Shown: piece by piece, positions 9,593-63,781 of the stretch
Numbering within the stretch: position 1 is the first letter of the stretch
Layout: the number at the start of each line of letters is the position of its first letter
Assembly (NCBI RefSeq): GCF_002161215.1
Contig: NZ_NFMB01000001.1
Location: 62,001-126,000, forward strand
Direction of reading: 5' to 3'
DNA length: 64,000 nt
DNA from: Flavonifractor sp. An10
GTDB lineage: Bacteria; Bacillota; Clostridia; Oscillospirales; Oscillospiraceae
The notes under the pieces: model-generated
What the model saw: the letters and a program-made list of their open reading frames with translations, nothing else
The model's database searches: none
What the model was told of the DNA's origin: nothing
Program-made: the position numbers and the translations under genes

Positions 9593-9597
9593 TAACA

Positions 9598-13427: not shown

Positions 13428-13719
13428 GCTTCATTTTGGTGAGGTGCCTGGGACGATGAATTTGTAACCGTGTCCCCGCACTGTTTCTATGATGCCAGTC
13501 CCCAGCTTGCGCCGGAGCTTGTAGATCATGCTGGAGATCCCGGTCCAGCTGGCATCAAAAGAGTCCGTAGCGACAGCCTCATAGATTTGGCGGGCGGAGA
13601 ACACCTGCCCTGGCCGGCGGGCCAGCAGGAGCAGAATGTCAAACTCCATCGGGGTCAGGTCCACCGTCTGGTCGGACTGCCATACCAGCCTGCGTTGCGG
13701 GTCGATTTGTAGATTTCCA
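13394..13719. repeat. Direct repeat copy 2 (terminator plus winged-helix coding part)
   Basis: Second copy of the stretch at 5231-5556. Together the copies bracket the two-component/ABC/peptidase module and could recombine to lose or circularise about 8.2 kb. Confidence 0.8.
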
Positions 13720-13850: not shown

Positions 13851-13901
13851 CCTGACGCCTCCTTATGAGCCGTCGTAGTGTATTAGGCGCAGGGGAAAAG
13901 A

Positions 13902-13946
13902 CTGCTGAACGACGGCTTTTTTTCTTTTGCCGTCGTCCGGCAGCAG
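13902..13946 (-). terminator. Terminator after the ABC permease gene
   Basis: CTGCTG and ACGACGGC arms (13902-13916 with 13929-13946) form a long hairpin directly after the permease TAA. A T-rich run follows on the reverse strand. Confidence 0.7.
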
Positions 13947-15391: not shown

Positions 15392-15404
15392 GAAATTCCT
15401 CCGT

Positions 15405-15578
15405 TATTGAAAAAAGATGAAAAGTAAAAAGGCCACAGCATAAATCAAAAATGAAATCCCGATGGGCTTTGATCTCTGTTTTAGCCCTTTTAGGCCATCG
15501 CTCAATATGCCATTCAAGGCCATGAGCAGGCACACCGCAAAGGCGATGAGTGAAATTACTAAAGCTACTTTAACCATT
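15405..15578 (-). CDS. 57-residue membrane protein leading the ABC operon
   Basis: The frame starts ATG at 15578 with GGAGG 8 nt upstream and encodes MVKVALVISLIAFAVCLLM, a loop GILSDGLKGLKQRSKPIG and a second helix ISFLIYAVAFLLFIFF. Two helices with a short basic loop are clear. It is the first gene behind the promoter with tandem 11-bp repeats and lies 13 nt before the BcrA-like ATPase. I do not recognise a family. By position it may be a small accessory or sensor subunit of the transporter. Confidence 0.7.
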
Positions 15579-42958: not shown

Positions 42959-44630
42959 AGAGGCTCCCGTCAATGGAAACATAGTCATTCAGGTTGATAC
43001 TCAGCATCCCGTCCGGCGTCCAGGTATCCCAGACCTGGGTGAAGACGGTGTAGTTCGTCGCATCCGGGAACCAGATGGGGGTAAAGTGCACTTCCCGGCT
43101 GTAAGTAGAGAACTCATTGGGCTGGAAAGTGAATTTGGCGCTCCGGCCGCAGGACACTCGCTGCAGCAGGCGGAGATAGGTTTCATACTGGAACTCCGGG
43201 AACACCGAAAAGGCCGTCTGCGGATGGGTGATGTGGCTGGTGGGCGCGTCGGTGGAGAGCGTGGCGGTCACATCCTGCTTGACGCCGTACCCGCTCTTCA
43301 TGGACTTTCCGGAGGCCGTCGGCACAATATCGTCCGGCATCAGGGACATGACGCCGCTGATGGAGGCGGAATAGCCGGTGTACTCATATTCCCAGTAGCC
43401 TTCATCCACCCAATGCCCACCGTCTTCCCCGTGATCGCACCACACCCATACCGGCACCCAGTAGCAGCTCCAGACGCCCCAGTTGGCCGTGAGTTTCTGC
43501 GTTTCATTGGGCAGGGACGGCACAGTATAGGAGGGATTGGTGTCTGTGGCTACCGGGTCGGGCGGGATATGTTCGTTCAGGTCCACGATCTTTGCCACAA
43601 AGGTATCCTGGGCAGTATAGGCGCCGCTGACGGATACCGTGATGGTGACTGTCTGCGGTGTAGTGGGGGTATGCCACTTGACCCAGACTACCTGGCTATC
43701 GCCAGCGGGGATTACGATATCGTTGACGCGATAGGTGGTGCCGAGGATATGGAAGGTCACCGAAGCGGGATTATCCGGCGTCAGGTCGGTATCCGTCCGC
43801 AGGGTGACAGAGGTGATGACATCGGTATCCACCCGGTACTCCACATCAGGGGCCTCGATCTCACCCTCGGGCGGGGCTTCATCAAACCAGACGATGCCGA
43901 CGCCAAGTGTATTGATGATGTCGGAATTGTTTTGCGTCCCGGTGGTGTTGCCGGTCCAGGCGGAAATGCCAAGATCGCTGAACTCCAGAAACATGGACAG
44001 CGGCAGGTTCTTATGGGTCAGCGAGGTCATGGTTCGGCGCAGGTTGCCGCCGGACATCTGATCGTAAAGGCCAGCCTCAGTGGCTGTCATGCAGTAATAC
44101 TGGCCGTTGTGGGTAAAGTAGGCGATGGGCTCGATCAGCAGCTTATATTCGCCGGCGATCATCCGCTCGTAGTCCACGCCCGCAGCCTGGGCAACCATCA
44201 TGCAGGCGTACTCCGAGCAGAAGTACCGCTTGATGGCGTCAATGTTGCTCTGGCCTTTGCTGCTGACGATGGTGGGCATTGACTGCGCGGGCTTGATGCA
44301 GGAATAGGCCACCCCGGACTGGAGGGAGAGGCCGGAGCCGCTCAGGTACTGCAGCTTGTTGACCTTGCCGAAATGGAGGATACTGCTTTTCTGTGTCCGG
44401 TTGGAAAAGTCCAGCGGTGAGGACACGGCAGCGCCGCTTTCCGCATCCACAACCGTGATGCGCACGCCATCGTTGCCGGGATTCCAGAAGTTTGAGGATG
44501 TGCCTTGCCCCATCCCGCCGCCGCCACCGTCAATGTTCCCGTTGCCTCCCGATGCAAATGCCGTGGAGGGAACGAGGCAGAACACCAGGGCGAGGCTGCA
44601 TAAGAGGGCGAGAAGTCGTTTCAAATACAT
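42930..44630 (-). CDS. Large secreted protein of the pilus locus
   Basis: The 566-residue protein has a clear signal peptide (MYLKRLLALLCSLALVFCLV, cleavage near ASA/FASGG) and a Gly-rich start of the mature part. It then has a segment with a YFCSEYACMMVAQAAGVDYE stretch and an Ig-like beta domain (ASVTFHILGTTYRVNDIVIP). The C-terminal half is Trp/Tyr rich. No LPXTG motif or membrane tail is seen. It lies between DUF6550 and the prepilin peptidase, so it is probably exported with or displayed on the pilus, perhaps as an adhesin. I do not recognise its family. Confidence 0.75.
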   Translation of the reverse strand: MYLKRLLALLCSLALVFCLVPSTAFASGGNGNIDGGGGGMGQGTSSNFWNPGNDGVRITVVDAESGAAVSSPLDFSNRTQKSSILHFGKVNKLQYLSGSGLSLQSGVAYSCIKPAQSMPTIVSSKGQSNIDAIKRYFCSEYACMMVAQAAGVDYERMIAGEYKLLIEPIAYFTHNGQYYCMTATEAGLYDQMSGGNLRRTMTSLTHKNLPLSMFLEFSDLGISAWTGNTTGTQNNSDIINTLGVGIVWFDEAPPEGEIEAPDVEYRVDTDVITSVTLRTDTDLTPDNPASVTFHILGTTYRVNDIVIPAGDSQVVWVKWHTPTTPQTVTITVSVSGAYTAQDTFVAKIVDLNEHIPPDPVATDTNPSYTVPSLPNETQKLTANWGVWSCYWVPVWVWCDHGEDGGHWVDEGYWEYEYTGYSASISGVMSLMPDDIVPTASGKSMKSGYGVKQDVTATLSTDAPTSHITHPQTAFSVFPEFQYETYLRLLQRVSCGRSAKFTFQPNEFSTYSREVHFTPIWFPDATNYTVFTQVWDTWTPDGMLSINLNDYVSIDGSLYDDWYTNRE

Positions 44631-44656
44631 CACGCTCCGTTCTTTTTGAAAATAAG

Positions 44657-44684
44657 AAGGCCGCCACAATCCTGTGACGGCCTT
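44657..44684 (-). terminator. Hairpin between DUF6550 and the secreted protein gene
   Basis: AAGGCCGCCACA pairs with TGTGACGGCCTT (one mismatch, 4-nt loop), followed by CTTATTTTC on the reverse strand. As an internal terminator it would reduce expression of the downstream pilus genes. Confidence 0.75.
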
Positions 44685-44710
44685 TCAAGTCCATATTCAG
44701 TTGTAGGTGG

Positions 44711-45286
44711 TCAGCCGCCCATGTTGCCGACCTGCTTATTCAGATCACCGTCGCTGTCGCCGGTAGACTGCTGCACATCGCCGGGGACTACCCAGCCAAA
44801 CACCGGATCATAAACAGCGCCGCTGCCATTGCTGGAGCCGGGGGCCGGCTCATTGCTGGAAGTGGATTCCTCTTCAGGAGGGGCAGTGACTTCCGGTACT
44901 GCCGGGTCGGGATTGACCTCATGCTCTTCGCCGGGATCTTCGATCTCCGTCTTGCCTTCCGGCACAGGGGGCGGTGTTTCATCCGGCTTCTCCGTATCGG
45001 TAAAGTCGATTTCAACCTCGCCCTCAGATTCTGAGGTCACCTTGGGATATTCCTCTTCGGCGTTGGAAGACTGGCCGGGTGCATAGGCGTCTGCGCCCCC
45101 GCTCCCGTCGCCAGACTGTGCGCCGCCATCCGACCAGTCGCTGCTGGTGCTGCTGGGAGGAGATTCATCCGGCTGGAATTCTTCCGTGCGGTCCCGGCTC
45201 ACAAACCAGCAGACGCCCAGAATGGCAACGCAGAGGACGGCCAGGATTGAAACAATAAAGCCTTTGGATTGGAAAAACTTCTTCAT
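44711..45286 (-). CDS. DUF6550-like membrane-anchored protein
   Basis: The 191-residue protein has one N-terminal helix (residues 9-28, GFIVSILAVLCVAILGVCWF), then a long Ser/Glu/Pro-rich extracytoplasmic stretch, and a conserved-looking C-terminal GAVYDPVFGWVVPG. This fits the DUF6550 proteins that accompany such pilus loci in clostridial elements. ATG 45286 is the first ATG after AAAGGAG. The disordered linker may bridge the cell wall. Confidence 0.75.
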   Translation of the reverse strand: MKKFFQSKGFIVSILAVLCVAILGVCWFVSRDRTEEFQPDESPPSSTSSDWSDGGAQSGDGSGGADAYAPGQSSNAEEEYPKVTSESEGEVEIDFTDTEKPDETPPPVPEGKTEIEDPGEEHEVNPDPAVPEVTAPPEEESTSSNEPAPGSSNGSGAVYDPVFGWVVPGDVQQSTGDSDGDLNKQVGNMGG

Positions 45287-45358
45287 GTGTGTCCACACTC
45301 CTTTTTGCTGTTATATAAAGCCTATACTGCGGAGCTGACTGGAATTTCAACAGCGCCG

Positions 45359-45859
45359 CTAAAATTTGGTGTTGTGGTAGCCGGTCAGCTCCACCCGCTG
45401 GGTGATGGTGGGGTAACTGTGCCCGAACATGCGCACATAGAACTCCACATCACAATAGAAGATATACTCCACCCGGTCGCCCACCACATTGAACTCCAGG
45501 CTGATGTCGGATACCTCATAGTCCTCTGTGGAAAGCGGGATCTTTTCTGCCAGGCCGCCGGCGACAGTGGCCTCCAGCATTTCCGTATAGTCATTGCTGG
45601 AATAGAGGGTGCGCAGGTACTCCTCGAAGTTGGTCTCCCGCTGGGAGCGGTAGGTGTCCGCATAGATGGTGGCGCTCAGGTTGTTCAGCTCCATTTTGGC
45701 GCCGTTGCGGATGTTGATGCAGGTGATCCGCACCGAGGCGTACAGAAGCAGGAAAGAGATGAGCATGACGACCCCGACTACAAAGAAGCAGGCAAAGAAA
45801 GTAATCTCGCCCCGCTCGTTGCGAAGCGGCCGGCGCAGCCATGAAAGAAAACGCTTCAT
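45359..45859 (-). CDS. TadE/TadF-like pseudopilin
   Basis: The 166-residue protein has a basic start (MKRFLSWLRRPLRNERGEIT), one hydrophobic helix directly after an RGE segment (about 21-43), and a soluble domain with AKMELNNLSATIYADTYRSQ and LEFNVVGDRVEYIFYCDVEF. That is the layout of TadE/F minor pilins. ATG 45859 follows GAGGTGG. It starts 8 nt after the DUF4320 gene ends. Confidence 0.78.
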   Translation of the reverse strand: MKRFLSWLRRPLRNERGEITFFACFFVVGVVMLISFLLLYASVRITCINIRNGAKMELNNLSATIYADTYRSQRETNFEEYLRTLYSSNDYTEMLEATVAGGLAEKIPLSTEDYEVSDISLEFNVVGDRVEYIFYCDVEFYVRMFGHSYPTITQRVELTGYHNTKF

Positions 45860-45867
45860 AGGCCACC

Positions 45868-46335
45868 TCACTTCCAATAGTGCTCGCTGACGCCGGAGCC
45901 GCGGGCCACCACCGTGATGTTGACCAGATCCAGGTTCCAGAAGCCGCCCAGTTTGGCCTCGCCCTCAATGGTGATATAGAAGGGCGTCCCAAGCTGGATG
46001 GCCCGGGACATCCCGGACGGCGTAGGCGTCTTGTATGTGGCATCGATGGAGTATGTGATATTCTCCGCCCCCTCGATCTCCGAGCACAGAAAGTCAAAGA
46101 GCGAGTCGGTCTCGCTGTTGATGCCGCCGGACAGCTGGATCTGTTTGACCATCTGATCTGCCGCATGGTCTAACTCCTGTTTTGTGGAGATGATGCCGAA
46201 CAGGTCAATGATAAAGGCCAGCAGGATGACGGCGATGAAGATGAACACCACCGTGGAGAAATAGTTGGCCTCGCCCCGTTCGCTCTTCAATGTCCTGCGG
46301 ACTTTTTGCAGGAAAGTATGAATGTGAACCACCAC
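45868..46335 (-). CDS. DUF4320/TadG-like pseudopilin
   Basis: The 155-residue protein has the same layout as its neighbour: LKSERGEANYFSTVVF, one helix (about 27-48), then HAADQMVKQIQLSGGINSET and a beta-rich end (YITIEGEAKLGGFWN). It matches the DUF4320 group next to Tad genes. GTG 46335 is taken as start behind AAAGG; two further GTG/GTT codons make the exact start uncertain. It is the first gene of the pilus locus. Confidence 0.75.
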   Translation of the reverse strand: MVVHIHTFLQKVRRTLKSERGEANYFSTVVFIFIAVILLAFIIDLFGIISTKQELDHAADQMVKQIQLSGGINSETDSLFDFLCSEIEGAENITYSIDATYKTPTPSGMSRAIQLGTPFYITIEGEAKLGGFWNLDLVNITVVARGSGVSEHYWK

Positions 46336-46350
46336 CTTTACTTACAAATG

Positions 46351-46379
46351 AAAAACAGCCGTCCCGACCGGAACGGCTG
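46351..46379 (-). terminator. Leader hairpin ahead of the pilus locus
   Basis: CAGCCGT (46356-46362) pairs with ACGGCTG (46373-46379) with an inner CCG/CGG. On the reverse strand TTTTT follows. It lies between a candidate promoter and the first pilus gene, so it may act as an attenuator. Confidence 0.7.
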
Positions 46380-46403
46380 CATTACAAAGTTTTGACTGTA
46401 CCA

Positions 46404-46412
46404 AGTATAGCA
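46404..46412 (-). promoter_or_regulatory. Extended -10 promoter candidate for the pilus locus
   Basis: The reverse strand reads TGCTATACT (TGn plus -10 TATACT at 46404-46409), with no convincing -35. Transcription would begin about 20 nt before the leader hairpin at 46351-46379. Confidence 0.5.
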
Positions 46413-46487
46413 GATTTGGATTTACGGCGAAAGGGCAGGACTGCGCCAATGTATGGGCAATCCTGTGCCAATTCTTTTTAGCGATGG

Positions 46488-46530
46488 CGATTATACAAAT
46501 CCAAAATGAAATTCTAGATTTGTGTAATCG
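46488..46530. repeat. 14-bp inverted repeat in the divergent region
   Basis: CGATTATACAAATC (46488-46501) and GATTTGTGTAATCG (46517-46530) match in inverted orientation at 13 of 14 positions around a 15-nt centre. It lies where gene direction switches from reverse to forward. No T-run supports a terminator. It may be an operator, an origin of transfer or an element-end site. Confidence 0.6.
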
Positions 46531-46591
46531 AAGTCTGATAGTCAAGGGCCGAAACCACTCGAAAATGCCACTATTGAGTAATAGGAGAACA

Positions 46592-46710
46592 GAAAGGAGT
46601 TCGGCATTGAGAAAGGCCGCTTCTCTTTCCGCCTAACTGCCCCATACAGTGAGGAACGGCGGGAAGCAGCGCGGCAGTGTGCCAGAGATAACAATGCCGC
46701 TGACAGGCTG
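46592..46710 (+). pseudogene. Possible gene remnant in the intergenic region
   Basis: A forward frame without a usable start reads KEFGIEKGRFSFRLTAPYSE, then ERREAARQCARDNNAADRLK, before TGA at 46708-46710. Its regular amphipathic pattern looks like the end of a real small protein, with in-frame stops just upstream. The rest of the 560-nt gap (46336-46896) holds only the promoters, hairpin and inverted repeat listed separately. Confidence 0.3.
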
Positions 46711-46739
46711 AAATGATGTAGATTTGTTCATGAGCCCTT

Positions 46740-46748
46740 TGGTATAAT
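46740..46748 (+). promoter_or_regulatory. Extended -10 promoter candidate for the XRE-membrane gene
   Basis: TGGTATAAT on the forward strand (-10 TATAAT at 46743-46748), with a poor -35. It would give a leader of about 140 nt before the gene at 46897. Confidence 0.5.
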
Positions 46749-46896
46749 AAACTTAATCCTAAAATGCTCAAAAACATATCCGTCAGAGGGTTAAAGTGAT
46801 AAATTGATGCGAATTTTGGAATGCAACCGATAGTTGCTAAATAGTTGGTAGAATGAGAGTGCCGCTTTCGCTACAATATAGGTGGAGGTGAAGAAT

Positions 46897-47691
46897 ATGT
46901 CATTAGGCGAAAGGATTAAGGAGCAACGAAAAAGCTCTGGATTATCACAAGAAAAAGTGGCTGAGTTTGTCGGTGTAAGCCGACAAGCAGTAACAAAGTG
47001 GGAAACAGGTCAATCCGCCCCAAGCACAGAGAATCTTTTCAAGCTGGCAGAGATATTCGGCACGACAGTAGATATACTGTTAGCTTCCGATGAAGAAGAA
47101 AAGGACACACCGGCGGAACAGATTTACTATCTTTACAAAATGGAGCAAGAAAAGAAACGTGAAGAACGCCGTAAAAAAATAAAAAAGAATATATTTTTTA
47201 CACTGGTTGTTGCCGTTGGGTATGTCATTGTCTATCTTGTTGGACGCATTTTCGGTACAACTGGGCAGCAAACAAGTGTAATAGGGTGGCTATTTGGAGA
47301 TGATCCAGCACAGTTAAGCTATTTATATGGTTGGCTGCTACATCAAAATATATTTTGGATTGCTATGGCGGTATCCGTAATCCCTGCATTGTTTGGGAAA
47401 AAGTATTTTTCATTTACAACACTGGCAGGATTTGCGCTTGGACTACTTATTGGTGAATTAGGGGGCCAAAACCCCGCAGGAGCAGCATACGGTTACGGTC
47501 ATTACGGTTGGGCTATTTGGGGCGGTATCTTTACATTCTCCATTGTAATGGGTATTATCTTTGAAAAAATCACCAAAAGCACGATTGACTGGAAATCCAA
47601 AAAGTTATGGGTTTGGTCAGCAGTTTTCGCTATTGGTATTTTATCTATTCTGATAATTATTAGAATGAGTATGCCTACGAGCTTTGGCTAA
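46897..47691 (+). CDS. XRE-family regulator with membrane domain
   Basis: The 264-residue protein has an N-terminal XRE HTH (MSLGERIKEQRKSSGLSQEK, then FVGVSRQAVTKWETGQSAPS), a charged linker (MEQEKKREERRKKIKKN) and about five membrane helices from residue 93 to the end. Such membrane-tethered XRE proteins are common in clostridia, and their signals are mostly unknown. ATG 46897 has GGAGG 9 nt upstream. It stands alone between two element segments, in AT-rich DNA. Confidence 0.85.
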   Translation: MSLGERIKEQRKSSGLSQEKVAEFVGVSRQAVTKWETGQSAPSTENLFKLAEIFGTTVDILLASDEEEKDTPAEQIYYLYKMEQEKKREERRKKIKKNIFFTLVVAVGYVIVYLVGRIFGTTGQQTSVIGWLFGDDPAQLSYLYGWLLHQNIFWIAMAVSVIPALFGKKYFSFTTLAGFALGLLIGELGGQNPAGAAYGYGHYGWAIWGGIFTFSIVMGIIFEKITKSTIDWKSKKLWVWSAVFAIGILSILIIIRMSMPTSFG

Positions 47692-47823
47692 TTCTATATC
47701 AAAATATTCTACTTTGAATGATGTGCAATAAATATTGGAGTACTGATGATATTTGTTGCGTATAGGATCACAAAGCCGTATTTGCATTCACAATTATTTT
47801 CAACAACTCTGATTATCTCGAAA

Positions 47824-47886
47824 AAGCCTGTAAATACAAGGCTTTGATAAGGATGGTAGCAAGAAACCAGTAAAATCAAGGCTTTG
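47824..47886. repeat. Imperfect 23-nt direct repeat
   Basis: AAGCCTGTAAATACAAGG plus CTTTG at 47824-47846 recurs at 47864-47886 with four differences, 40 nt apart. It lies near the left end of the Tn1549-like gene run, where attachment sites or integrase arm sites would be expected. The remaining gap, 47692-47937, holds no gene. Confidence 0.45.
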
Positions 47887-47937
47887 TGGACAGCAACAGG
47901 CAATGCGACAATTAAAACTGAATAAGTTTACAGAGCA

Positions 47938-47969
47938 GGGATACCGTTTTCGTCAATGGTATCCCTTTT
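47938..47969 (+). terminator. First of two tandem terminators
   Basis: GGGATACC/GGTATCCC stem (47938-47945 with 47958-47965) followed by TTTT. Confidence 0.7.
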
Positions 47970-47985
47970 CTGTTGCTCCACACTG

Positions 47986-48019
47986 ACGCCATAGGTACAA
48001 AAACCTGTGGCGTTTTTTT
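47986..48019 (+). terminator. Second of two tandem terminators
   Basis: ACGCCATAGGT pairs with ACCTGTGGCGT around an AAAA loop, followed by TTTTTT. Two terminators in 80 nt shield the downstream element genes from upstream transcription. Confidence 0.85.
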
Positions 48020-48048
48020 GTGCCCATTTTTGGAAAGGAGCCGGATAG

Positions 48049-48570
48049 ATGAAACTGAATGAAGCAGAAATGAGGATGGCGTACCAGATCGAGAGTACAG
48101 ACCCGAACGCTGTCCTGAATGAAATTTATATGACCTGGCGCCTGTCAAGGAACCAGGCCACCAGGGATACGGCGGAAAGCCTCATGGCGAAGCTGCGCAC
48201 CCTGTCAAACAGCGAGTGCATGGATTTGATCCGGGAGGTCCAGGCAAATTACCGTCTGCCGGGGAAGCCCCAGACCATCGGGGAAATGCTGGCGGAGGCC
48301 AGACAGAAGTCCGGGGCACAGAAGCTGGCCGGACACGATATCATGGCCCTGGAACGGTTTGACCCGGACACCCGGCACATGATCGTCTTTGACGTCCTCT
48401 CCCATGAGTCCCCTATGGGATGGAAAGGAGAAAAAATGCGTCTGTTCCTAACCGAAGCCGGTTATGGCAAAGCCCTGGAGAACCAGGAGAAGGGATTTAT
48501 CAAGATCAGGAACCATGCGAAGGTGTGCGGGGGCGATCTGCTCTATGACCGGCGTGACCGTGAGCTGTAG
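48049..48570 (+). CDS. Conserved Tn1549-like element protein
   Basis: The 173-residue protein starts MKLNEAEMRMAYQIESTDPN behind AAAGGAG (8 nt). It has a helical first half (ATRDTAESLMAKLRTLSNSE) and a domain with RFDPDTRHMIVFDVLSHESP and GFIKIRNHAKVCGGDLLYDR. It is cytoplasmic. It occupies the position of the first gene before the replication initiator in Tn1549-type elements. No biochemical role is known to me. Confidence 0.7.
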   Translation: MKLNEAEMRMAYQIESTDPNAVLNEIYMTWRLSRNQATRDTAESLMAKLRTLSNSECMDLIREVQANYRLPGKPQTIGEMLAEARQKSGAQKLAGHDIMALERFDPDTRHMIVFDVLSHESPMGWKGEKMRLFLTEAGYGKALENQEKGFIKIRNHAKVCGGDLLYDRRDREL

Positions 48571-48741
48571 GGCTTAAAAAATGTGTCAAAAGGGGTGGAA
48601 AATCCTCTGTTTTTCCTTCTGTGGGCGGCGGTATGAAAGCCGCCCATATTCTTTCCCCTGATGGACAGGGCGGCAGATTACAGAGGGTATTTTCCGCGAA
48701 AATCAACACTTTTTCAATCCATGAGGAAGGAGGTAAACGGC

Positions 48742-49659
48742 ATGGCGGTTTTCCGTATCGAAAAGACCCGTGATTACACGGTCATGTCAAACCACCATCT
48801 GCGGAACACGGCGCTGTCCCTGAAAGCGAAAGGGCTTTTATCCCTCATGCTCTCCCTGCCGGAAGGATGGGACTATACCACAAAGGGCCTTGCCCGTATC
48901 TGCAAAGATGGCGTGGACAGTATCTGCGCCGGGGTGCGGGAGCTGGAGGAACAGGGCTATGTGATCCGGGAGCGTGTCCGGAACGCCAACGGGCAGCTTG
49001 GGGCTATCGAATACACCATCCTGGAGCAGCCCAGGCAGCCGGAACCTGAACGGGAAAAACCTGGACGGGAAAATCCAGTTCAGGCAAATCCAGTCTTGGA
49101 TAACCCTGTATTGGGAAAACCTGAACAGGGAAACCCCGCACAATTAAATACGAAAGAATCAAGTAACTATGGATCAATAACTGATTTATCAAATACGGAG
49201 CTATCAAATCCTATCCAATCAAATCCCCAGCCCCTTATGGGGCATCCCCCAGCAGGGACAGGGATGGGAACGGATGGGATGGGAGCCAGAGAGGTCTATC
49301 GTGAAATTATCCTGGACAACATCGAGTATGAGTATCTGATCCAGGATAACCACATCGACCGGGAGCAGCTGGACGAGATCGCGGAGCTGATCGTGGATAC
49401 GGTATGCTCCGCGCGAAAGACGATCCGCATTGCCGGGGATGATTACCCGGCGGAGGTGGTCAAATCCCGCTTTATGAAGCTGGACAGTTCCCATGTACGG
49501 TATGTCATGGACTGTATGCGGGACAACACCACTTATGTCCGCAACATCAAGAAGTATCTGCTGGCGGCCCTGTATAACGCTCCGTCCACCATCAGCAATT
49601 ACTATTCCTCCCTGGTACAGCATGACATGTACGGGGACGGTAAGCGAGGGAGGGGTTAA
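48742..49659 (+). CDS. Replication initiator-like protein (RepA-type N-terminus, DUF6017-like)
   Basis: The 305-residue protein opens MAVFRIEKTRDYTVMSNHHL and carries the winged-helix pattern of RepA-type initiators (LSLKAKGLLSLMLSLPEGWD, then GLARICKDGVDSICAGVREL). A Pro/Asn-rich linker with repeated NPV/GNP units (residues about 110-175) leads to a C-terminal DUF6017-like domain (YEYLIQDNHIDREQLDEIAE, SSHVRYVMDCMRDNTTYVRN). ATG 48742 has GGAGG 8 nt upstream. It probably starts replication of the excised element. PcfB follows directly. Confidence 0.85.
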   Translation: MAVFRIEKTRDYTVMSNHHLRNTALSLKAKGLLSLMLSLPEGWDYTTKGLARICKDGVDSICAGVRELEEQGYVIRERVRNANGQLGAIEYTILEQPRQPEPEREKPGRENPVQANPVLDNPVLGKPEQGNPAQLNTKESSNYGSITDLSNTELSNPIQSNPQPLMGHPPAGTGMGTDGMGAREVYREIILDNIEYEYLIQDNHIDREQLDEIAELIVDTVCSARKTIRIAGDDYPAEVVKSRFMKLDSSHVRYVMDCMRDNTTYVRNIKKYLLAALYNAPSTISNYYSSLVQHDMYGDGKRGRG

Positions 49660-50151
49660 ATGCAGGAAGAAGTAACCGGCAAAACCGTGACCCTAATCGT
49701 CAACGGGGCCAAAATGAGCGAGCAGGTGTTTGAAAAGGCGGTAAAGAAGTTCCTGGAGGAAATCCAGAAAAGCAGGCAGCCGAAAATATACCGGGGAAAG
49801 CAGACCCTCAAACAGCTGGCCTCCCAGAACGCCGGGCTTGCCAATATCGAGATCAGCGACAAGAATATCAAGGCCTTTACCCATGTGGCGAAGAAATACC
49901 ATGTGGATTTTGCCTTGAAGAAAGACACCGCCGCCGAGCAGCCCCGCTACCTGGTCTTTTTCAAGAGCCGGGACGCGGACGCCATCACGGCGGCCTTCCA
50001 GGAGTTTGCCGGCCGCAGGATGGGCCGGGAGGAAAAACCCGCCATCCGGGACCGGCTGGAGCAGGCGAAGGAACAGGCGGAGCGGAAACCGGAGCACCGG
50101 ACACTGGACCGGGAGAAAGTCAAAACCAGGGATCGGAGCGTGCAGCGATGA
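49660..50151 (+). CDS. pcfB: PcfB-family conjugation protein (DUF3801)
   Basis: The 163-residue protein matches PcfB/DUF3801: VTLIVNGAKMSEQVFEKAVK, then VDFALKKDTAAEQPRYLVFF with KSRDADAITAAFQEF, and a basic C-terminus. PcfB of pCF10 helps bring the relaxosome to the coupling protein. Its ATG follows the initiator stop directly, with GGGAGGGG as site, and its stop overlaps the VirD4 start (ATGA). Confidence 0.88.
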   Translation: MQEEVTGKTVTLIVNGAKMSEQVFEKAVKKFLEEIQKSRQPKIYRGKQTLKQLASQNAGLANIEISDKNIKAFTHVAKKYHVDFALKKDTAAEQPRYLVFFKSRDADAITAAFQEFAGRRMGREEKPAIRDRLEQAKEQAERKPEHRTLDREKVKTRDRSVQR

Positions 50152-50447
50152 ACATGAAAAAACTGATCCTGGCAAATCTCCCCTATCTGCTCTTTGTCTA
50201 TCTCTTTGACAAGATAGGCGCAGCAATACGCCTTACCCCCGGCGCAGACGCAAGCGAAAAACTCTTGCAGCTTGGTACAGGCTTTGCCGCTGCCTTTTCC
50301 AGTATCGCGCCGAGCCTGCACCCCGCCGATCTGCTTATCGGCGTTGCGGGGGCGGTCATTATCCGGCTTGCCGTTTACATGAAAGGCAAAAACGCGAAGA
50401 AATACCGAAAAGGCATGGAATACGGTTCCGCGCGTTGGAGTGCATAA
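50148..50447 (+). pseudogene. VirD4/TraG coupling protein, truncated after the membrane part
   Basis: Only the first 98 or so residues remain: MNMKKLILANLPYLLFVYLF, a second helix (HPADLLIGVAGAVIIRLAVY) and GKNAKKYRKGMEYGSARW, which in intact VirD4-type ATPases leads on to the Walker A domain. Here the frame ends two codons later at TAA 50445-50447, and a recombinase gene begins. The ATPase domain is not found anywhere in the window. Conjugation by this element cannot rely on this copy. Confidence 0.85.
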
Positions 50448-50494
50448 TCTTAAGTGTAAAGGAACTCTACATGGACGCACAGGAGGATATGCAC

Positions 50495-52468
50495 ATGAAT
50501 GATTACAACAAAATCACAGCCCTTTACTCCCGTCTTTCCGTAGGGGACGAGGACAGGGACGGCGGCGAGAGCAACAGCATACAGAACCAGAAAATCTTTT
50601 TGGAGAACTACGCCAGAGGGCAGCGGCTGACGAATATCCGGCACTACATCGACGACGATGAAAGCGGCAGATTTTTTGACCGTTCTGCCTACTCCCGCAT
50701 GATGGAGGACGTTGAAAACGGGAAAATCGGCGTTTGCATTATGAAAGACCTTACCCGCTGGGGGCGCGACTATCTCCAAGTCGGCAACGCTATGGAGATA
50801 TTCAGACGGAACAACGTGCGTTTTATCGCGGTCAACAACGGCATTGACAGCGAGAAGCCCGACACATTGGAGTTTGCGCCCTTTATCAACATCATGTCGG
50901 AGTGGTACGCAAAGGACATCAGCAAGAAAGTGAAAACGGGCATTAAGACCAAAGGCATGAGCGGAAAGCCGATTGCCACCGAAGCCCCCTACGGCTATGT
51001 CAAAGACCCGGACAACAAGGATTTTTGGATAATCGACGAGGAAGCCGCCGAGGTTGTGCGCCTTATTTTCCGTTTGTTTATCGGCGGGAAGAACCGCAAC
51101 CAAATCGCCGTATATCTGAAAAACGAGCAAATGCCGCCCCATGCCCCGCCCTCTTTCTCTGACCGCGCTACCCTATGGAACAGTGTGGAGCTTTACGAGA
51201 AAACCGGGAACGCCCAGCTTGCCAGAGAGATTGACGCAGCACTCCCCATAGAATTATCCAGAGAGGAACAGATCCGGCTTGTCCGGGAATACTGTTCCTC
51301 TCAATTTGTTTCCAGAGGAATGTGCGTTGATTTTGCCATTCACGACACCGACAGCGGCAACCCCCATTGTCATATCATGCTTACTATGCGCCCCCTTGAC
51401 GAGCGCGGCGCATGGGCGGCGAAGTCCAAAAAGGAATATGACATTGACGAGAACGGCGAGCGCATACGCTTACCAAGCGGCAGATACAAGACACACAAAG
51501 TTGACCTCACAGGCTGGAACGACAAGGGCAACGCGCTTTTATGGCGCAAGGCATGGGCGGATATTTCAAATGCCTACCTTGAACGCGCCGGACGCCCGGA
51601 GCGTATCGACCACCGCAGTAACGCCGAGCGCGGCATTGACGAGCTGCCTACCGTCCACATGGGCGTAGCGGCTTGTCAAATGGAGAAGAAAGGCATAGCC
51701 ACCGAGAAAGGCGAGCTGAACCGGAATATCCAAAAGGCAAACCGCCTTATCCGGGAAATCCGGGCGCAGATTGGAAAGCTCAAAGAATGGATTGGCGAAC
51801 TGTTCAAGGCGCGGGAAAACGCCCCGGAGCAGCCCCCGCAATCCCCCGGCCTTGCAAATCTGCTGATGAAGTATTTAAGCGTTCAGAGAGAAAAGAGCCG
51901 GAAGTATTCGCAAAGTTGGCAAAGGCAGCACGCCGCCGATGAACTGAAAACCGTTGCAAAGGCAGTAGGCTATCTTTCCGAGCATGGCATTTCCACCCTT
52001 GCGGAGCTGGACGCTACCCTTTCCTCTGTCAGCGACCAAGCCGACGCTATCCGGGCGGGCATGAAAACCGCCGAGAAGCGCATGAAAGAATTACAAAAGC
52101 TGATTGAATACGGGAAGAACTACACCGAGTACAAGCCCATTCACGACGAGCTGAAAAAGCTGAAAAATGGCTGGACGAGCAAGCGCGACAAGTACGAGGA
52201 AGCCCACCGCGCCGAGCTTACGCTATGGAACGCAGCGAGCCGCTATCTCCATGCAAATCTGCCGAAAGGGACAAAGAGCTTGCCTATCGCTGAATGGGAA
52301 AAAGAGTACGCCACCCTCAGCGGGCAGAGAACAGCGGAATATACCAAGCTGAAAGAAACCCGCGCCGAGGTTGCCGAGCTGCACAATATCCGCAAGTGCG
52401 TTGATATTGCGCTGAAAGCCGACCAGCCGGAGCAGACCCGCACCAAGCAGCACGACTTAGAACGATGA
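50495..52468 (+). CDS. Chimera: serine recombinase N-terminus fused to MobA/MobL relaxase
   Basis: The 657-residue frame has two parts. Residues 1-212 are a large serine recombinase: catalytic Ser15 in YSRLSVGDED, MKDLTRWGRDYLQVGN, and the start of the recombinase domain (APYGYVKDPDNKDFWIIDEE). From Met213 (MPPHAPPSFSDRATLWN) to the end it is a MobA/MobL (MobQ) relaxase with the metal-binding HDTDSGNPHCH at 283-293 and a long coiled C-terminus. The relaxase lacks its usual N-terminal 60-80 residues with the nicking Tyr, and the recombinase lacks its zinc ribbon and coiled coil. ATG 50495 follows AGGAGG. No stop or shift marks the joint. Confidence 0.88.
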   Translation: MNDYNKITALYSRLSVGDEDRDGGESNSIQNQKIFLENYARGQRLTNIRHYIDDDESGRFFDRSAYSRMMEDVENGKIGVCIMKDLTRWGRDYLQVGNAMEIFRRNNVRFIAVNNGIDSEKPDTLEFAPFINIMSEWYAKDISKKVKTGIKTKGMSGKPIATEAPYGYVKDPDNKDFWIIDEEAAEVVRLIFRLFIGGKNRNQIAVYLKNEQMPPHAPPSFSDRATLWNSVELYEKTGNAQLAREIDAALPIELSREEQIRLVREYCSSQFVSRGMCVDFAIHDTDSGNPHCHIMLTMRPLDERGAWAAKSKKEYDIDENGERIRLPSGRYKTHKVDLTGWNDKGNALLWRKAWADISNAYLERAGRPERIDHRSNAERGIDELPTVHMGVAACQMEKKGIATEKGELNRNIQKANRLIREIRAQIGKLKEWIGELFKARENAPEQPPQSPGLANLLMKYLSVQREKSRKYSQSWQRQHAADELKTVAKAVGYLSEHGISTLAELDATLSSVSDQADAIRAGMKTAEKRMKELQKLIEYGKNYTEYKPIHDELKKLKNGWTSKRDKYEEAHRAELTLWNAASRYLHANLPKGTKSLPIAEWEKEYATLSGQRTAEYTKLKETRAEVAELHNIRKCVDIALKADQPEQTRTKQHDLER

Positions 52469-52483
52469 AAGGAGTTGAGATTT

Positions 52484-54370
52484 TTGTACTACACCCAAGA
52501 ACAGATAGACCGGGCGAACCAAGCCGACCTTGTTTCTTTCCTGCAATCACAGGGCGAGCAGCTTACCCGCGCCGGGAATGAATACCGCTGGAAACGGCAC
52601 GACAGCCTGACCGTCCGGGGAAACAAATGGTACAGGCACAGCCAGAGCAAGGGCGGCGGCCCCGTTGATTTTGTCATGGAGTTTTTCGGCAAGAGCTTCA
52701 CCGAAGCCGTGGAACTTCTCACAGGAGAAAAGGGAGCCGCACCGCCGCCGGACAGACCTTGCCACGCGTCCCTTTCCGACTTCCGGCTACCGCCCCCAAA
52801 CAACGACAACAGAATAGCGAGGAACTACCTCACAGCAGCCCGCCGCATTGATGATGATGTGACGGGCTTTTTCTTTGCCCGCGGCGATATTTACGAGGAC
52901 GCAGCCCACCACAACGCCGTATTTGTGGGGCGGGACGAGGACGGAATACCGCGCTACGCCCACAGCAAGGGAACGGCGGGAAACTTCCGGTTTGATGTGA
53001 AAGGCAGCGACAAAGCCTTTAATTTCTGCTACCGAGGCGAGGGTGACAGGCTTTTTGTCTTTGAAGCCCCCGTTGACCTGCTCTCTTTCCTCTGCCTGTT
53101 CAAAAAGGCGTGGCAGAAGCAGAGCTATTTGTCATTGGGCGGCGTGGGAGAAAAAGCCCTGTTGCGTTTCCTCTCTGACCGCCCGAACATCAAGACCGTT
53201 TACCTCTGCCTTGACAGCGACCAAGCCGGAAACGACGCTTGCAGCCGCCTTGCGGAGCTTGTGCCGGAGGGCTTGACCGTCCACCGCCTTGTGCCGCTTC
53301 ACAAGGACTGGAACGAGGTATTGCAGCACCGGGCGGAAATCACAGACGGGAAGTATATCCGGGAAGCGGTCTACGGCTTGAAAGAGCCGCCGCAGGAAGA
53401 AACCGTCGAGATTATCCGCATGAGTGAGGTGGACACACAGACCGTTGAATGGCTATGGGAGCCGTATATCCCCTTTGGGAAAGTAACCATTGTGCAAGGC
53501 AACCCCGGCGAGGGCAAGACCACCTTTGCCCTACGCCTTGCCGCCGCCTGCACCACCGGGGGAACGCTGCCGGGAATGAAGCCCTTGCCGCCATTCCCAG
53601 TGATTTACCAGACCGCCGAGGACGGGCTGGGCGATACCGTCAAGCCCCGCTTGATAGAAGCCGAAGCCGACCTTGACCGCGTGCTTGTGATTGATGAAGC
53701 CAAGCGGGAGCTTACCCTCTCCGACGAGCGCATAGAAAAGGCAATCACGCAGAACGGGGCGCGGCTGATTATCCTTGACCCCATACAGGCGTACATGGGC
53801 GAAAAGACCGACATGAACCGGGCAAACGAAGTGCGCCCCATGTTCCGCCGCCTTGCCGATGTTGCCGAGCGTACCGGGTGCGCCGTTATCCTTATCGGGC
53901 ACTTGAACAAAGCCGCCGGAGGGCAGAGCGCATACCGGGGCTTAGGTTCTATTGACTTCCGCGCCGCAGCAAGGAGCGTCCTGCTGATCGGGCGCGTGAA
54001 GCGGGAGCCAAATGTGCGCGTTATCGTCCATGACAAATCTTCCCTTGCGCCGGAGGGCAAGCCCGTTGCCTTTTGCCTTGACCCGGAAACAGGCTTTTCA
54101 TGGATAGGCGAATACGACATAACCGCCGACGAGCTGCTATCCGGCGCGGGCGGGAACACCGCCACCAAGACCGAGCAAGCCGAGAAACTGATACTTGAGC
54201 GGCAAGCACTTGACCGGCACCGTTATCTACGGCTACCTGTGGGACGAAAAGCGGGAACACTGGCTTGTGGACGAAGAAGCCGCCGAAGTGGTACGCCGTA
54301 TCTTTTCCCTGACGATGGAGGGCTACGGCCCCTATCAAATCTCAAAGCTGCTGTCCGAGGCAAAGGTTGA
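52484..54370 (+). CDS. DUF3991/toprim primase-like protein with AAA (RepA-like) domain, C-terminus replaced
   Basis: The 628-residue protein has DUF3991 at the N-terminus (YYTQEQIDRANQADLVSFLQ, KGGGPVDFVMEFFG), a toprim domain (VFEAPVDLLSF, YLCLDSDQAG) and a RepA-type AAA ATPase with Walker A GNPGEGKTT at 339-347, LIILDPIQAYMG and VILIGHLNKA. It is likely a primase-helicase for element replication. TTG 52484 is taken as start with AAAGGAG 9 nt upstream. From about residue 571 (after TEQAEKLILE) the frame enters a recombinase gene in another phase, so the last 58 residues are foreign and the native C-terminus is lost. Confidence 0.82.
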   Translation: MYYTQEQIDRANQADLVSFLQSQGEQLTRAGNEYRWKRHDSLTVRGNKWYRHSQSKGGGPVDFVMEFFGKSFTEAVELLTGEKGAAPPPDRPCHASLSDFRLPPPNNDNRIARNYLTAARRIDDDVTGFFFARGDIYEDAAHHNAVFVGRDEDGIPRYAHSKGTAGNFRFDVKGSDKAFNFCYRGEGDRLFVFEAPVDLLSFLCLFKKAWQKQSYLSLGGVGEKALLRFLSDRPNIKTVYLCLDSDQAGNDACSRLAELVPEGLTVHRLVPLHKDWNEVLQHRAEITDGKYIREAVYGLKEPPQEETVEIIRMSEVDTQTVEWLWEPYIPFGKVTIVQGNPGEGKTTFALRLAAACTTGGTLPGMKPLPPFPVIYQTAEDGLGDTVKPRLIEAEADLDRVLVIDEAKRELTLSDERIEKAITQNGARLIILDPIQAYMGEKTDMNRANEVRPMFRRLADVAERTGCAVILIGHLNKAAGGQSAYRGLGSIDFRAAARSVLLIGRVKREPNVRVIVHDKSSLAPEGKPVAFCLDPETGFSWIGEYDITADELLSGAGGNTATKTEQAEKLILERQALDRHRYLRLPVGRKAGTLACGRRSRRSGTPYLFPDDGGLRPLSNLKAAVRGKG

Positions 54371-55625
54371 AATCCCCGCTGTCCATCTGGCACGCTTTCA
54401 AGAGGGAGTAAACAGGACGAAGCCGGTCAAAGACCCCTACGGCTGGGGATCGTCCACCATTGTGAACATCCTGAAAAAGCGGGAATACCTGGGCCACACC
54501 ATCAATTTCAAGACCCGCAAGCACTTCAAGGACAAGAAAAGCCACTATGTTGACGAAAGCGAGTGGACGATTTTCGAGAATACCCATGAGGCCATCATCG
54601 ACCAGGAAACCTTTGACAATGTGCAGCGTATCCGGGCAAATGTCAGGCGTTACCCGGACGGCTGGGGCGATGCCCACCCTCTGACCGGCCTGATGTACTG
54701 CGCCGACTGCGGCGGCAAGATGTATGTCCATCGCGTCAATAACGGCAAGCGTGACCCACAGTTTACTTGCAGCCAGTACAGCAAAATCCCATGCGGGACG
54801 CTCTGCGGTACACAGCACCGTATCCGGGCCGAAGCTGTCCTGACCTTGATAACCGATATGCTCCGGGCCATCGCGGAGTATTCCAAGAATGACCGGGCCG
54901 AGTTTATCCGCACCGTCCAGGAAACGCAGGCCGCCCAGCAGGCCGCCGACATATCCAAGAAGCGGAAACGGCTGGCCGCCGCCCAAAAGCGGGCCGGGGA
55001 ACTGGAAAAGCTGATTTGCAAAATCTATGAGGACAACGCCCTGGGCAAGCTGCCGGACGCCCGGTATGAGGCCCTGGACGCACAGTATGCCAAAGAGCAG
55101 GACGCTCTCAATGCGGAAATCACGGAACTGGAAAAGGCCGTTATCGGCTATGAGCAGAGCCGGAAATCTGCGGAGAAGTTTATTGCCTTGATTGACAAGT
55201 ATGAGAATTTCGACACGCTGACAAATACCATGCTCAACGAGTTTGTAGAGAAAATTCTTGTCCATGAACGCGCCCGCAAAGGCAGCCAGGACACCACTCA
55301 GGAGGTTGAAATCTACTTCAATTTTGTGGGCCGGTATATCCCACCCGCCTTGCAGCCGGTTCCCCTGACCCCGGAGGAACAGGAAGAACTGCGGAAGAAG
55401 GAGGAACGCAAGGACAGGCTTCACCAGAACTACTTGCGCCGCAAGGCAAATGGCAAGCAGAAGGAATGGGAAGAACGCTACAACGCCAGGCGCAAGGCAA
55501 AAATGGATGCGGCAAAGGCCGCGATCCGGGCCGAGGACATGGAGAAGGGCATTTTTACCACCGTTAGCCAGTTACCCAGGCAGGAGCCGCGCAAGGCCAC
55601 CGTATCGGCTAGCGCCGCAATTTAA
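54195..55625 (+). pseudogene. Large serine recombinase, C-terminal part only
   Basis: The 476-residue frame contains the recombinase domain (GTVIYGYLWDEKREHWLVDE, then WGSSTIVNILKKREYLGHTI), a zinc ribbon (CADCGGKMYVHR.. and CSQYSKIPCGTLC), a coiled coil (KRKRLAAAQKRAGELEKLI) and a DUF4368-like end (VEIYFNFVGRYIPP). The catalytic N-terminal domain is missing and no ribosome site is seen. Its YGYLWDEKREHW segment overlaps in function with YGYVKDPDNKDFW of the chimera upstream but differs in sequence. The two fragments therefore come from different recombinases, not one split gene. Confidence 0.85.
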
Positions 55626-55651
55626 CCATCACAGTGCAAAGGAGAATGAAC

Positions 55652-56005
55652 ATGAGCGAATTGACTTATACCCGTTGCGGAGATTACTACATCCCCGATC
55701 TGAAACTGTCCGAGCAGCCGGAGGCCCCCATCGGCAAGTATGGCCGTATGCGGCGGCGCTACCTGAAGGAACACCGCCCCGGCCTTTACACCAGCCTGAT
55801 TTTGTGCGAAAAGCTGTATCCGCACCTGTTGGAGATTGACCGGGCGGCGCGGGAGCGCATGGACGTCATGCTGCCCCGCATGATGGAGGCGGCGGGCGTG
55901 ACCGAGGATTTGAAGGCCCGTGACCCCATGCGCTGGGTGGGGCTGATAAACACATTGAAAGCGCAGGCGGAGGAAATAATTATTACAGAAATCATTATGG
56001 AGTGA
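55652..56005 (+). CDS. tnpV: TnpV-family transposon protein
   Basis: The 117-residue protein has the TnpV pattern: YTRCGDYYIPDLKLSEQPEA, IGKYGRMRRRYLKEHRPGLY and DPMRWVGLINTLKAQAEEII. TnpV follows large serine recombinases in Tn4451-like and related elements; its role in transposition is not clear. ATG 55652 has AAAGGAG 9 nt upstream, 27 nt after the recombinase fragment. Confidence 0.85.
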   Translation: MSELTYTRCGDYYIPDLKLSEQPEAPIGKYGRMRRRYLKEHRPGLYTSLILCEKLYPHLLEIDRAARERMDVMLPRMMEAAGVTEDLKARDPMRWVGLINTLKAQAEEIIITEIIME

Positions 56006-61803: not shown

Positions 61804-62217
61804 ATGGAAGTCACCATCAATTATAACGGACAAGCTGTGGCCGTGGAGGTCACACTGGAAGTCTATGAATTTCTTGACCGGGCCGACCACAAAGCCGAGA
61901 ACCTGTCCCATGAGCAGCGGCGGCATTGGGATGGCCGGGAGTTTGACGAATACATAGTTGCCACCGAGGGCGTGGGTATCTACGGCGAAACGCCGGAGGA
62001 ATACCTTTGCCGCATGGAAACGCTGGGTGAGCTGATGGCCGTCCTGGACACCTGCACCGAGGCCCAGCGCCGCCGGTTCCTGCTCTATGCCCTGGACGGG
62101 CTGACTCTTGCGGAGATCGGGGCGGTGTGCGGCTGCTCCAAAGTGGCCGTGTATCAGAGTGTGGAGGCAGTCAGAAAAAAATTTATAAATTTCTTTGAAA
62201 ACAGGCTTAACGAATGA
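61804..62217 (+). CDS. Sigma-70 region-4-like protein
   Basis: The 137-residue protein has a beta-like start (MEVTINYNGQAVAVEVTLEV), a helical middle (LSHEQRRHWDGREFDEYIVA) and a region 4 HTH (RRRFLLYALDGLTLAEIGAV, then CGCSKVAVYQSVEAVRKKF). ATG 61804 follows GGAGGAAAGGCAG. Such proteins open the mobilisation region of Tn1549-like elements and are thought to control element genes. Confidence 0.8.
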   Translation: MEVTINYNGQAVAVEVTLEVYEFLDRADHKAENLSHEQRRHWDGREFDEYIVATEGVGIYGETPEEYLCRMETLGELMAVLDTCTEAQRRRFLLYALDGLTLAEIGAVCGCSKVAVYQSVEAVRKKFINFFENRLNE

Positions 62218-62265
62218 CCTGTTTTCGGGCTACCAAGTGAAAGGGATTGTTTCCCTTATCCCAGC

Positions 62266-62301
62266 GGGAGGCGGACAGCGGACAAGCTGCCCGCCTCTCC
62301 C
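62266..62301 (+). terminator. Leader hairpin between the first two sigma-like genes
   Basis: GGGAGGCGG (62266-62274) pairs with CCGCCTC.CCC (62291-62301), followed by ATTTTC and then the AGGAGG site of the next gene. It may be an attenuator. Confidence 0.55.
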
Positions 62302-62320
62302 ATTTTCAGGAGGTAAGCCT

Positions 62321-62773
62321 ATGAAAACAATCAATCTGCGGTGGATTTATCCCCACTACCGGCACGACGAGTTTGTAGAGGTCAGCGACGAGGTCTGGGA
62401 GGCCATGCGGCAGGCCCAGCGCGAGATGAACAACTATGAGCGCCGGAAGGTCTACCACCGCGCCTGGTACTCCCTGGACGCATATAGCTGGGCGGAGAAC
62501 TATGCGCTGGAACACGGCAGATCGCCGGAGGAAATCTTTTTGGAGCGCGAGGAACGGGCCGCCCATCTGCGTCTGCTGGCCGCCTTGCCGGAGGCCCTGG
62601 CCCATGCCACCCCCACACAGGCCCGCCGCGTCCGGGCCTACTACATCGTCGGTATCAACCAGCCGGAAATTGCCCGGATGGAGGGCGTACACAGCAGCAA
62701 GGTCAGCGTTGCCATCCGGCGGGGCCTGCGGAATATGCGCCGTTGCTATGACGGCCTTTTTCCGTCAGAGTGA
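62321..62773 (+). CDS. Sigma-like paralogue 1
   Basis: The 150-residue protein opens MKTINLRWIYPHYRHDEFVE with VSDEVWEAMRQAQRE and ends with a region 4-like HTH (ATPTQARRVRAYYIVGINQP, then EIARMEGVHSSKVSVAIRRG). ATG 62321 has AGGAGG 7 nt upstream. The N-terminal signature recurs in the next two genes, so this is one of three tandem paralogues. Confidence 0.82.
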   Translation: MKTINLRWIYPHYRHDEFVEVSDEVWEAMRQAQREMNNYERRKVYHRAWYSLDAYSWAENYALEHGRSPEEIFLEREERAAHLRLLAALPEALAHATPTQARRVRAYYIVGINQPEIARMEGVHSSKVSVAIRRGLRNMRRCYDGLFPSE

Positions 62774-62783
62774 GGGCGGGCCT

Positions 62784-63245
62784 ATGCAGACGATCAACCT
62801 CAAGCAATATTACCCGTTCTGTACCGAGGACACCTTTGTGGAGGTGTCGGATGAAATCGTTGAAGCGTTCCTGCTGGACAAGCGGGCCGAGGCCGCCAGG
62901 GAGCGCAAGATGTACCGCTACAAGGCGTTTTACTCCCTTGACTGCGACGATGGGATTGAGAACGCCGCCATCGGCTGGGCGCAGCCATCGCCGGAGGATT
63001 GCCTGATGGAAAAGGAGGCGCAGGCCGAATATGCCGAACTGCTCCGGCGGCTCTATGAGGCCATTTCCTCTCTGCCCCCAACGCAGGCCCGCCGCGTCCA
63101 TGCCCGGTATATGCTGGGGATGAAAGTGAAGGACATTGCTGCGATGGAGGGTATTACCCCATCCCAGGCGGGGAAGTCCATCCATGCGGCGCTCCGGCGG
63201 CTGCGCCGGTACTTCATACGCCGGAAATGGACAAGCGGCCTATGA
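62784..63245 (+). CDS. Sigma-like paralogue 2
   Basis: The 153-residue protein opens MQTINLKQYYPFCTEDTFVE with VSDEIVEAFLLDKRAEA, and its HTH reads PPTQARRVHARYMLGMKVKD then IAAMEGITPSQAGKSIHAAL. It begins 10 nt after paralogue 1 and overlaps paralogue 3 by 4 nt (ATGA). The shared opening with paralogue 1 indicates gene duplication with moderate divergence. The upstream part of the open frame is a shadow of paralogue 1. Confidence 0.82.
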   Translation: MQTINLKQYYPFCTEDTFVEVSDEIVEAFLLDKRAEAARERKMYRYKAFYSLDCDDGIENAAIGWAQPSPEDCLMEKEAQAEYAELLRRLYEAISSLPPTQARRVHARYMLGMKVKDIAAMEGITPSQAGKSIHAALRRLRRYFIRRKWTSGL

Positions 63246-63781
63246 AAACCCTCAACCTGAAAAAATACTACTACCCGATTTGCAAGAAGGACACTTTTGT
63301 GGAAGTGCCGGACGAGGTTGCAGACGCCATTGTGGAGGAAAGCCGCGCAGAGAACGCAAATGACGCCAAGCAGCACTATCACTGTTATTCTCTGGACGCT
63401 TCCCCCGGCATAGAACACCATTTCCCGGAACAGGTCATCTCCCCGGAAGATATTCTGATGGAGAAAGAAACGGAACGGGAACAGGAGGCCGCCCATGCCC
63501 TGATGATGGAACGGCTCCGGGAGGCCCTTGCCACCCTGACGCCCCGGCAGGCGAGCTGCCTTCATGCCCGGTTTTGGGAGGGCAAGCAGTTTAAGGAGAT
63601 TGCCAAGGCCGAAGGCTTTACGACATCAGCGGCCATCGTCACGGTTCGCAACGCCATTATCAAGTTGCAGAAATATTATATCAAGCGCGGCTGGATGGAG
63701 CCGCTGAAGGAGGACGCGATATGCACAAAGAAATCACCACCCAAGCGAAACAGAAAAAAGACGGGCGCGAAGAAGTCCTGA
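63242..63781 (+). CDS. Sigma-like paralogue 3 with basic tail
   Basis: The 179-residue protein opens MKTLNLKKYYYPICKKDTFV with EVPDEVADAIVEESRAE, has an HTH (LTPRQASCLHARFWEGKQFK, then EIAKAEGFTTSAAIVTVRNA) and ends in a lysine-rich tail (TKKSPPKRNRKKTGAKKS) the others lack. Its ATG overlaps paralogue 2. The DUF3847 gene starts inside its last 60 nt. Confidence 0.82.
   Translation: MKTLNLKKYYYPICKKDTFVEVPDEVADAIVEESRAENANDAKQHYHCYSLDASPGIEHHFPEQVISPEDILMEKETEREQEAAHALMMERLREALATLTPRQASCLHARFWEGKQFKEIAKAEGFTTSAAIVTVRNAIIKLQKYYIKRGWMEPLKEDAICTKKSPPKRNRKKTGAKKS

Follow-up and report, generated by a model that had tools for sequence, protein, structure and literature searches.

A 657-residue open reading frame in the genome of Flavonifractor sp. 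An10 joins the start of a serine recombinase to the end of a MobQ-type relaxase, raising the question of whether it encodes a new two-domain enzyme that can cut DNA in two ways or is the scar of an illegitimate recombination. We analysed it within a stretch of 64,000 nucleotides (contig NZ_NFMB01000001.1, positions 62,001 to 126,000), referred to below as the window and used as the coordinate system unless a contig or locus is named. The fusion is almost certainly a recent, accidental in-frame join of two broken genes after a 3.8-kb deletion in a small integrative and mobilizable element, here called IME1.

The frame runs from 50495 to 52468 on the forward strand, and the translation bears out the original prediction that it passes through the joint without a stop; further in-frame starts lie upstream (TTG at 50435 and ATG at 50471). 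Pfam places Resolvase (PF00239) at residues 9-158 and Recombinase (PF07508) at 182-215, the latter covering only the first third of its profile (positions 1-34 of 102), and Ser15, in the motif YSRLS, belongs to a resolvase-type catalytic domain. MobA_MobL occupies residues 206-399 (profile 32-224 of 224) and scores 254.8 bits against a Pfam gathering threshold of 26.7, a family assignment that covers profile positions 32-224 only; the NCBIfam MobQ equivalog model gives 180.7 bits, below its cut-off of 200. The acidic residues of relaxase motif II (REIDAALP, 244-251) and the motif III histidines (His283, His291 and His293 in HDTDSGNPHCH) are kept. Domain matches and motif checks thus agree with the proposed division into a serine recombinase with Ser15 (residues 1-212) and a MobQ relaxase with HDTDSGNPHCH (residues 213-657), the codon at residue 213 being a hybrid ATG formed at the joint.

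The losses described for both partners are equally real when the fusion is set against intact copies. The relaxase half begins about 53 residues into the intact relaxase, and the nicking Tyr25, which we located by aligning the intact relaxase with 4HT4 and 2NS6, falls in deleted DNA. The recombinase C-terminus is gone: DUF4368, the Zn ribbon and all but the first third of the Recombinase domain are missing, and a Pfam search of the fusion found neither the Zn ribbon (PF13408) nor a complete Recombinase domain. Among solved MobQ relaxases, NES (4HT4) aligns with fusion residues 213-312 and, weakly, with 339-372 (E 1.9e-18 for the whole protein), and MobA of R1162 (2NS6) aligns with 216-366; relative to both, the fusion keeps motifs II and III, whereas motif I with Tyr25 is missing from it and present in the intact IME1 relaxase. 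For MobA and MOBQ4 relaxases the nicking tyrosine is given as Y25, together with the roles of the motif residues, in the relevant part of PMC6856555. Because the nicking tyrosine and most of the DNA-binding region of the recombinase are missing, the fusion product would be expected, from knowledge of the two families, to be inactive both as a nickase and as an integrase.

Table 1. Features of the window copy of IME1 and its surroundings.
Feature	Position	Strand	Basis or remark
virD4/traG, 5' fragment of the coupling-protein gene of an integrative conjugative element (ICE)	50148..50447	+	ORF of 99 aa; no Pfam match of its own
attL, left junction of IME1, TGG	50436..50438	.	Same virD4 position as intact second copy
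LSR1 (large serine recombinase of IME1) 5' part, residues 1-212: catalytic domain with Ser15 and start of Recombinase domain	50495..51132	+	ORF, Pfam, intact copy
Joint 1	51132..51135	.	3.76 kb of intact second copy missing; frame kept
MobQ relaxase 3' part, from after nicking Tyr25	51132..52468	+	Pfam; identical to G163 gene
IME1 primase/helicase-like gene (DUF3991, Toprim, AAA_25), 3' end lost	52475..54198	+	ORF, Pfam, intact copy
Joint 2	54196..54198	.	1.48 kb missing; 3-bp overlap TGA; out of frame
LSR2 (second large serine recombinase), C-terminal part lacking the catalytic domain	54195..55625	+	Pfam Recombinase, Zn ribbon, DUF4368
tnpV, part of LSR2 cassette	55634..56005	+	PF14198 TnpV, E 5.9e-43

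The parent arrangement is present in the same genome. A search of An10 with window 50100-55900 gave 15 matches, including three collinear minus-strand blocks on the same contig, about 24 kb from the window copy. This locus (L009) carries, in order, LSR1 (624 aa), small genes, a methyltransferase-like gene (277 aa), a 98-aa gene in the position of MobC, the relaxase and the primase, the methyltransferase-like and MobC-position genes being named by eye; the primase-like protein (636 aa) is followed by the central portion of virD4 and by a complete LSR2 (626 aa) with TnpV. Complete 626-aa LSR2 copies are found both here and at locus L010. Recombinase and full-length MobQ relaxase, with Tyr25, are separate complete genes in L009. 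Against its reverse complement the window aligns in blocks 4612-5330, 9090-12156 and 13638-15423 (91.9, 94.1 and 93.7% identity), and the DNA between the blocks, 3.76 kb and, 3 kb further on, 1.48 kb, is missing from the window. MobA_MobL occurs three times in the An10 genome, complete in L009 and on contig 2 and cut to profile 32-224 in the fusion.

The boundaries of IME1 come from a second genome, Pseudoflavonifractor sp. An85, in which the virD4 site of the second copy is uninterrupted. Relative to that site the second copy is a precise 7,805-bp insertion in virD4 (a 7.8-kb element) beside a PF02534 match; TGG occurs at the empty site as well as at each end of the insertion. IME1 is a real unit, with both a filled and an empty site; the pair shows only that IME1 moved or was lost, and mobilisation of the element is putative. 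The window copy broke its virD4 fragment after ...EYGSARW, and we name that fragment virD4 because, at this site, the gene continues into the PF02534 match both in An85 and in the second copy. The left end of the window copy is present at 50436 and the right end lies inside deletion 2, so the copy should be unable to excise; the remnant is probably inert and immobile.

Both joints are sharp. At joint 1 the recombinase and relaxase sides strictly share a single base, the T at 51132 (four columns in the BLAST alignments), and in seven intact loci the relaxase-side match always begins at 51132 and the LSR1-side match ends at 51132-51140. A few bases just 5' of the joint (the codons of KNEQ) differ from most LSR1 copies and recur only in G083; we had considered filler DNA at the joint and dropped it, since these odd codons also occur in the G083 LSR1. 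Deletion 2 took the end of the primase gene, the right end of IME1, the middle of virD4 and the start of LSR2. Joint 2 is out of frame because the primase frame starts at 52475 and the LSR2 frame at 54195, and the primase frame continues past it, out of frame, to 54370.

A third broken LSR1, on contig 220 of genome G004, departs from the gene at the position corresponding to window 50991 and meets a stop about nine codons on. This break (locus L043) is a separate case of decay in such an element; one of the three breaks seen in elements of this kind thus keeps the frame, as chance predicts, though the number is small. Near position 9158 of L043 the cut IME1 recombinase gene is fused to unrelated DNA, with what looks by eye like the frame of a CsoR-like repressor behind it.

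We then asked where else the joint occurs. A 158-aa junction peptide, with the joint at position 64, had matches in 274 of 400 genomes of the family; among the matches listed, the joint was spanned (residues 1-158) only in An10 itself and in G219, which is An85, and the others were one-sided, crossing the joint by at most 12 residues. G219 and the second entry for An85 (G020, locus L033) agree over the 2,001 bases compared, the fusion region of An85 is identical to window 43232-51231 at 8,000 of 8,000 bases, and the fusion frame has no difference between An10 and An85. A codon-degenerate junction pattern gave 10 hits in genome_contigs, one of which is the fusion (An85, L033), while the other nine, read by eye in the frame of the pattern, contained neither half; viral_contigs gave no hits to the same pattern. 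Searching plasmids and phages by blastn with 501 bp over the joint yielded one partial hit each, none spanning it, and a search of the genus, in which 9 of 20 genomes matched, found the joint crossed only in An10. Recombinase and relaxase, the latter with the Tyr pattern, are separate open frames in An10, G163, G085, G253, G050 and G005, and the two matches likewise lie apart in G083, the one exception to the Tyr pattern among the seven intact loci (6/7); the halves are thus separate in six further genomes read besides An10. A literature search on recombinase-relaxase fusions or nested elements showed no such fusion among the papers listed, judged by title or opening of the abstract.

An10 and An85 are assigned to different genera of one family, and they share one long block that is nearly unchanged (An10 contig 1 55,792-175,337, 119.5 kb containing the whole window; An85 94,561-206,298, about 112 kb). 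Its collinear part (62,190 bp) has 80 differences, 79 in the LSR2/TnpV cassettes, one elsewhere and none in the fusion; its inverted part (23,168 bp) has 126, of which 86 are in cassettes, 38 are clustered at 62365-63170 and two lie elsewhere; and a further 26,970 bp has three. Outside the cassettes and the cluster, the whole block differs at six single positions. An inversion of about 20 kb between the genomes (An10 contig 1 116,196-139,363, from window 54196 onward; An85 contig 1 154,965-178,132) lies between inverted LSR2/TnpV cassettes, so that DNA to the right of about 55981 is in the opposite orientation in An85. By comparison, one 6-kb stretch searched from a different An10 contig matched An85 well across just 27% of its length, with 87% identity. 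Recent inter-genus transfer of an ICE-rich block is the simplest reading of this pattern. Laboratory contamination seems less likely, because the genomes differ by the LSR2-LSR2 inversion and by the second IME1.

The cluster of 38 differences lies in a stretch with a nearby inverted copy, which may explain it; the copy of 61570-64121 would lie some 3 kb further on, at about 92-93% identity. Window 62195-63781 holds three adjacent open frames with similar starts that look by eye like sigma-70 region-4 type paralogues.

The age of the fusion can be gauged from its parents. The relaxase part is identical at 1337 of 1337 bases to the intact gene of G163, which is assigned to another genus, and the intact G163 element matches exactly window 51132-54198 at 99.4%, its 19 differences all lying in the primase gene. 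With no change in 1337 bp, the open frame is no evidence on selection, and the fused frame has had no measurable time either for decay or for maintenance by selection. No intact parent as close as this exists for the LSR1 part among the sequences compared: its closest matches reach at best 92% up to the joint, or 95% over window 50418-50991 in G004, and it is 86% identical to G163 and 84% overall to G083. As the G163 LSR1 is only 86% like that of the window, the remnant as a whole does not descend directly from G163.

That the fusion is a maintained two-domain enzyme, cutting DNA by serine recombinase and by relaxase, would fit the open 657-residue frame with Ser15 and the motif III histidines and its presence in genomes of two genera, yet we consider it extremely improbable: the nicking tyrosine is gone, as are DUF4368, the Zn ribbon and all but the first third of the Recombinase domain; the relaxase part has had no time for visible selection; both genera carry one recently moved block; and the matches listed from the 400 genomes include no further fused homologue. 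The original prediction had proposed recurrence of the joint in unrelated genomes as a test of maintenance. The joint does recur, in An85, but only through recent transfer of the whole block, and so counts as such recurrence in form alone; the new-enzyme half of the prediction is not supported, as the only two genomes spanning the joint among the matches listed share that ~112-kb block. An assembly artefact is also very unlikely. Related IME1 copies about 24 kb apart can mislead short-read assemblers, but a misjoin of the two An10 copies, to which we give next to no weight, would have had to form between sequences just 92-94% alike at a joint sharing 1 bp, far below a k-mer, and the separate An85 assembly has the identical joint. 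An85, a chicken-caecum isolate reported as sequenced on Illumina NextSeq (PMC6069880), is almost without the DNA deleted at joint 1 (matches are limited to 136, 118 and 47 bp, at 85, 71 and 81% respectively), and therefore holds no parent for an assembler chimera. About 4 kb upstream of the remnant, at window 46596-46731, lies a 136-bp relic that is 85% identical to an inner part of IME1.

There is a slim chance that the fusion acts as a dominant negative, the catalytic and dimerisation part of its LSR1 pairing with the undamaged LSR1 that the second IME1 encodes and poisoning excision; a decayed element would then accidentally restrain its intact sibling in trans, an immunity-like effect. An10 does hold an intact IME1 whose LSR1 is related, and the fusion keeps the LSR1 start region, but the event is too recent for visible selection, and in An85, which has the fusion without an intact IME1, such an effect cannot explain its persistence. 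With the frame unbroken and the start region of LSR1 retained, a fusion protein could be made, which counts against reading the locus as a mere scar. The scar half of the original prediction nevertheless holds up on the intact parent genes, the sharp 1-bp and 3-bp joints, the second scar next to the first and the absence of any change in 1337 bases.

The recent deletion scar would have arisen in an element carrying a serine integrase (LSR1), a MobC-like gene, a MobQ relaxase and a primase. IME1 would first have inserted into virD4 of an ICE, with a second cassette (LSR2/TnpV) further downstream in the same virD4, in the order seen in the second copy. One illegitimate deletion with a 1-bp overlap would then have removed 3.76 kb between LSR1 and the relaxase, keeping the frame by chance (one in three) and giving the 657-aa fusion, and another with a 3-bp overlap would have removed 1.48 kb between the primase and LSR2, out of frame. 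We infer the order of events, and slippage or end joining as their cause, from the arrangement of the copies. The finding keeps an accidental open frame from being annotated as a new enzyme, and offers a base-resolution snapshot of nested IME decay in an ICE, in which a doubly deleted copy can be set beside its intact relative and an empty site, along with a recent transfer between genera.

The best solved-structure relative of the LSR1 catalytic domain is TnpX (2mhc, E 2.9e-28). Tn4451 differs from IME1 in its target gene and its content. IME1 resembles Tn4451-type mobilizable transposons, as far as these are covered in PMC5704250, in its TnpX-like catalytic domain and in recombination at very short identical cores, and the TnpV gene beside LSR2 is a further likeness (PMC5704250). 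Parallels in content and site are found among the serine-integrase IMEs in traG (VirD4), maff2 or snf2 of Tn5252-superfamily ICEs described by Coluzzi et al. (2017; PMC5357655), where the relevant section counts 16 such IMEs, 12 of them with MobQ relaxases and 12 in traG, maff2 or snf2. Likened by gene content and site, IME1 shares with those IMEs, described in streptococci (PMC5357655), a serine integrase, a MobQ relaxase and disruption of an ICE virD4; it differs in occurring among Pseudoflavonifractor relatives, and its window copy differs in being a remnant with two deletions. Judged on these genes, intact IME1 resembles this described kind, and the window copy would be a decayed member of it. 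Going by its description, the gut-bacterial IME_Rho_tet likewise has a serine recombinase, mobC, a relaxase and a SAM-dependent methyltransferase, but it differs in its maff2 sites (116 of 256 matched sites) and its tet genes (PMC12904643).

With one end of the remnant gone, excision should no longer be able to restore its virD4, a point relevant to a hypothesis in PMC5357655 on the excision of IMEs from ICE genes such as traG. The shared block contains a further virD4 match (An10 contig 1 161,992-163,209, profile 47-449 of 468), so the block could have been transferred without relying on the broken one. Two more virD4 genes in An10 (PF02534) are in two pieces each, at contig 1 206,304-210,348 and contig 9 348,439-350,737, which suggests that coupling-protein genes have been repeatedly interrupted in this genome.
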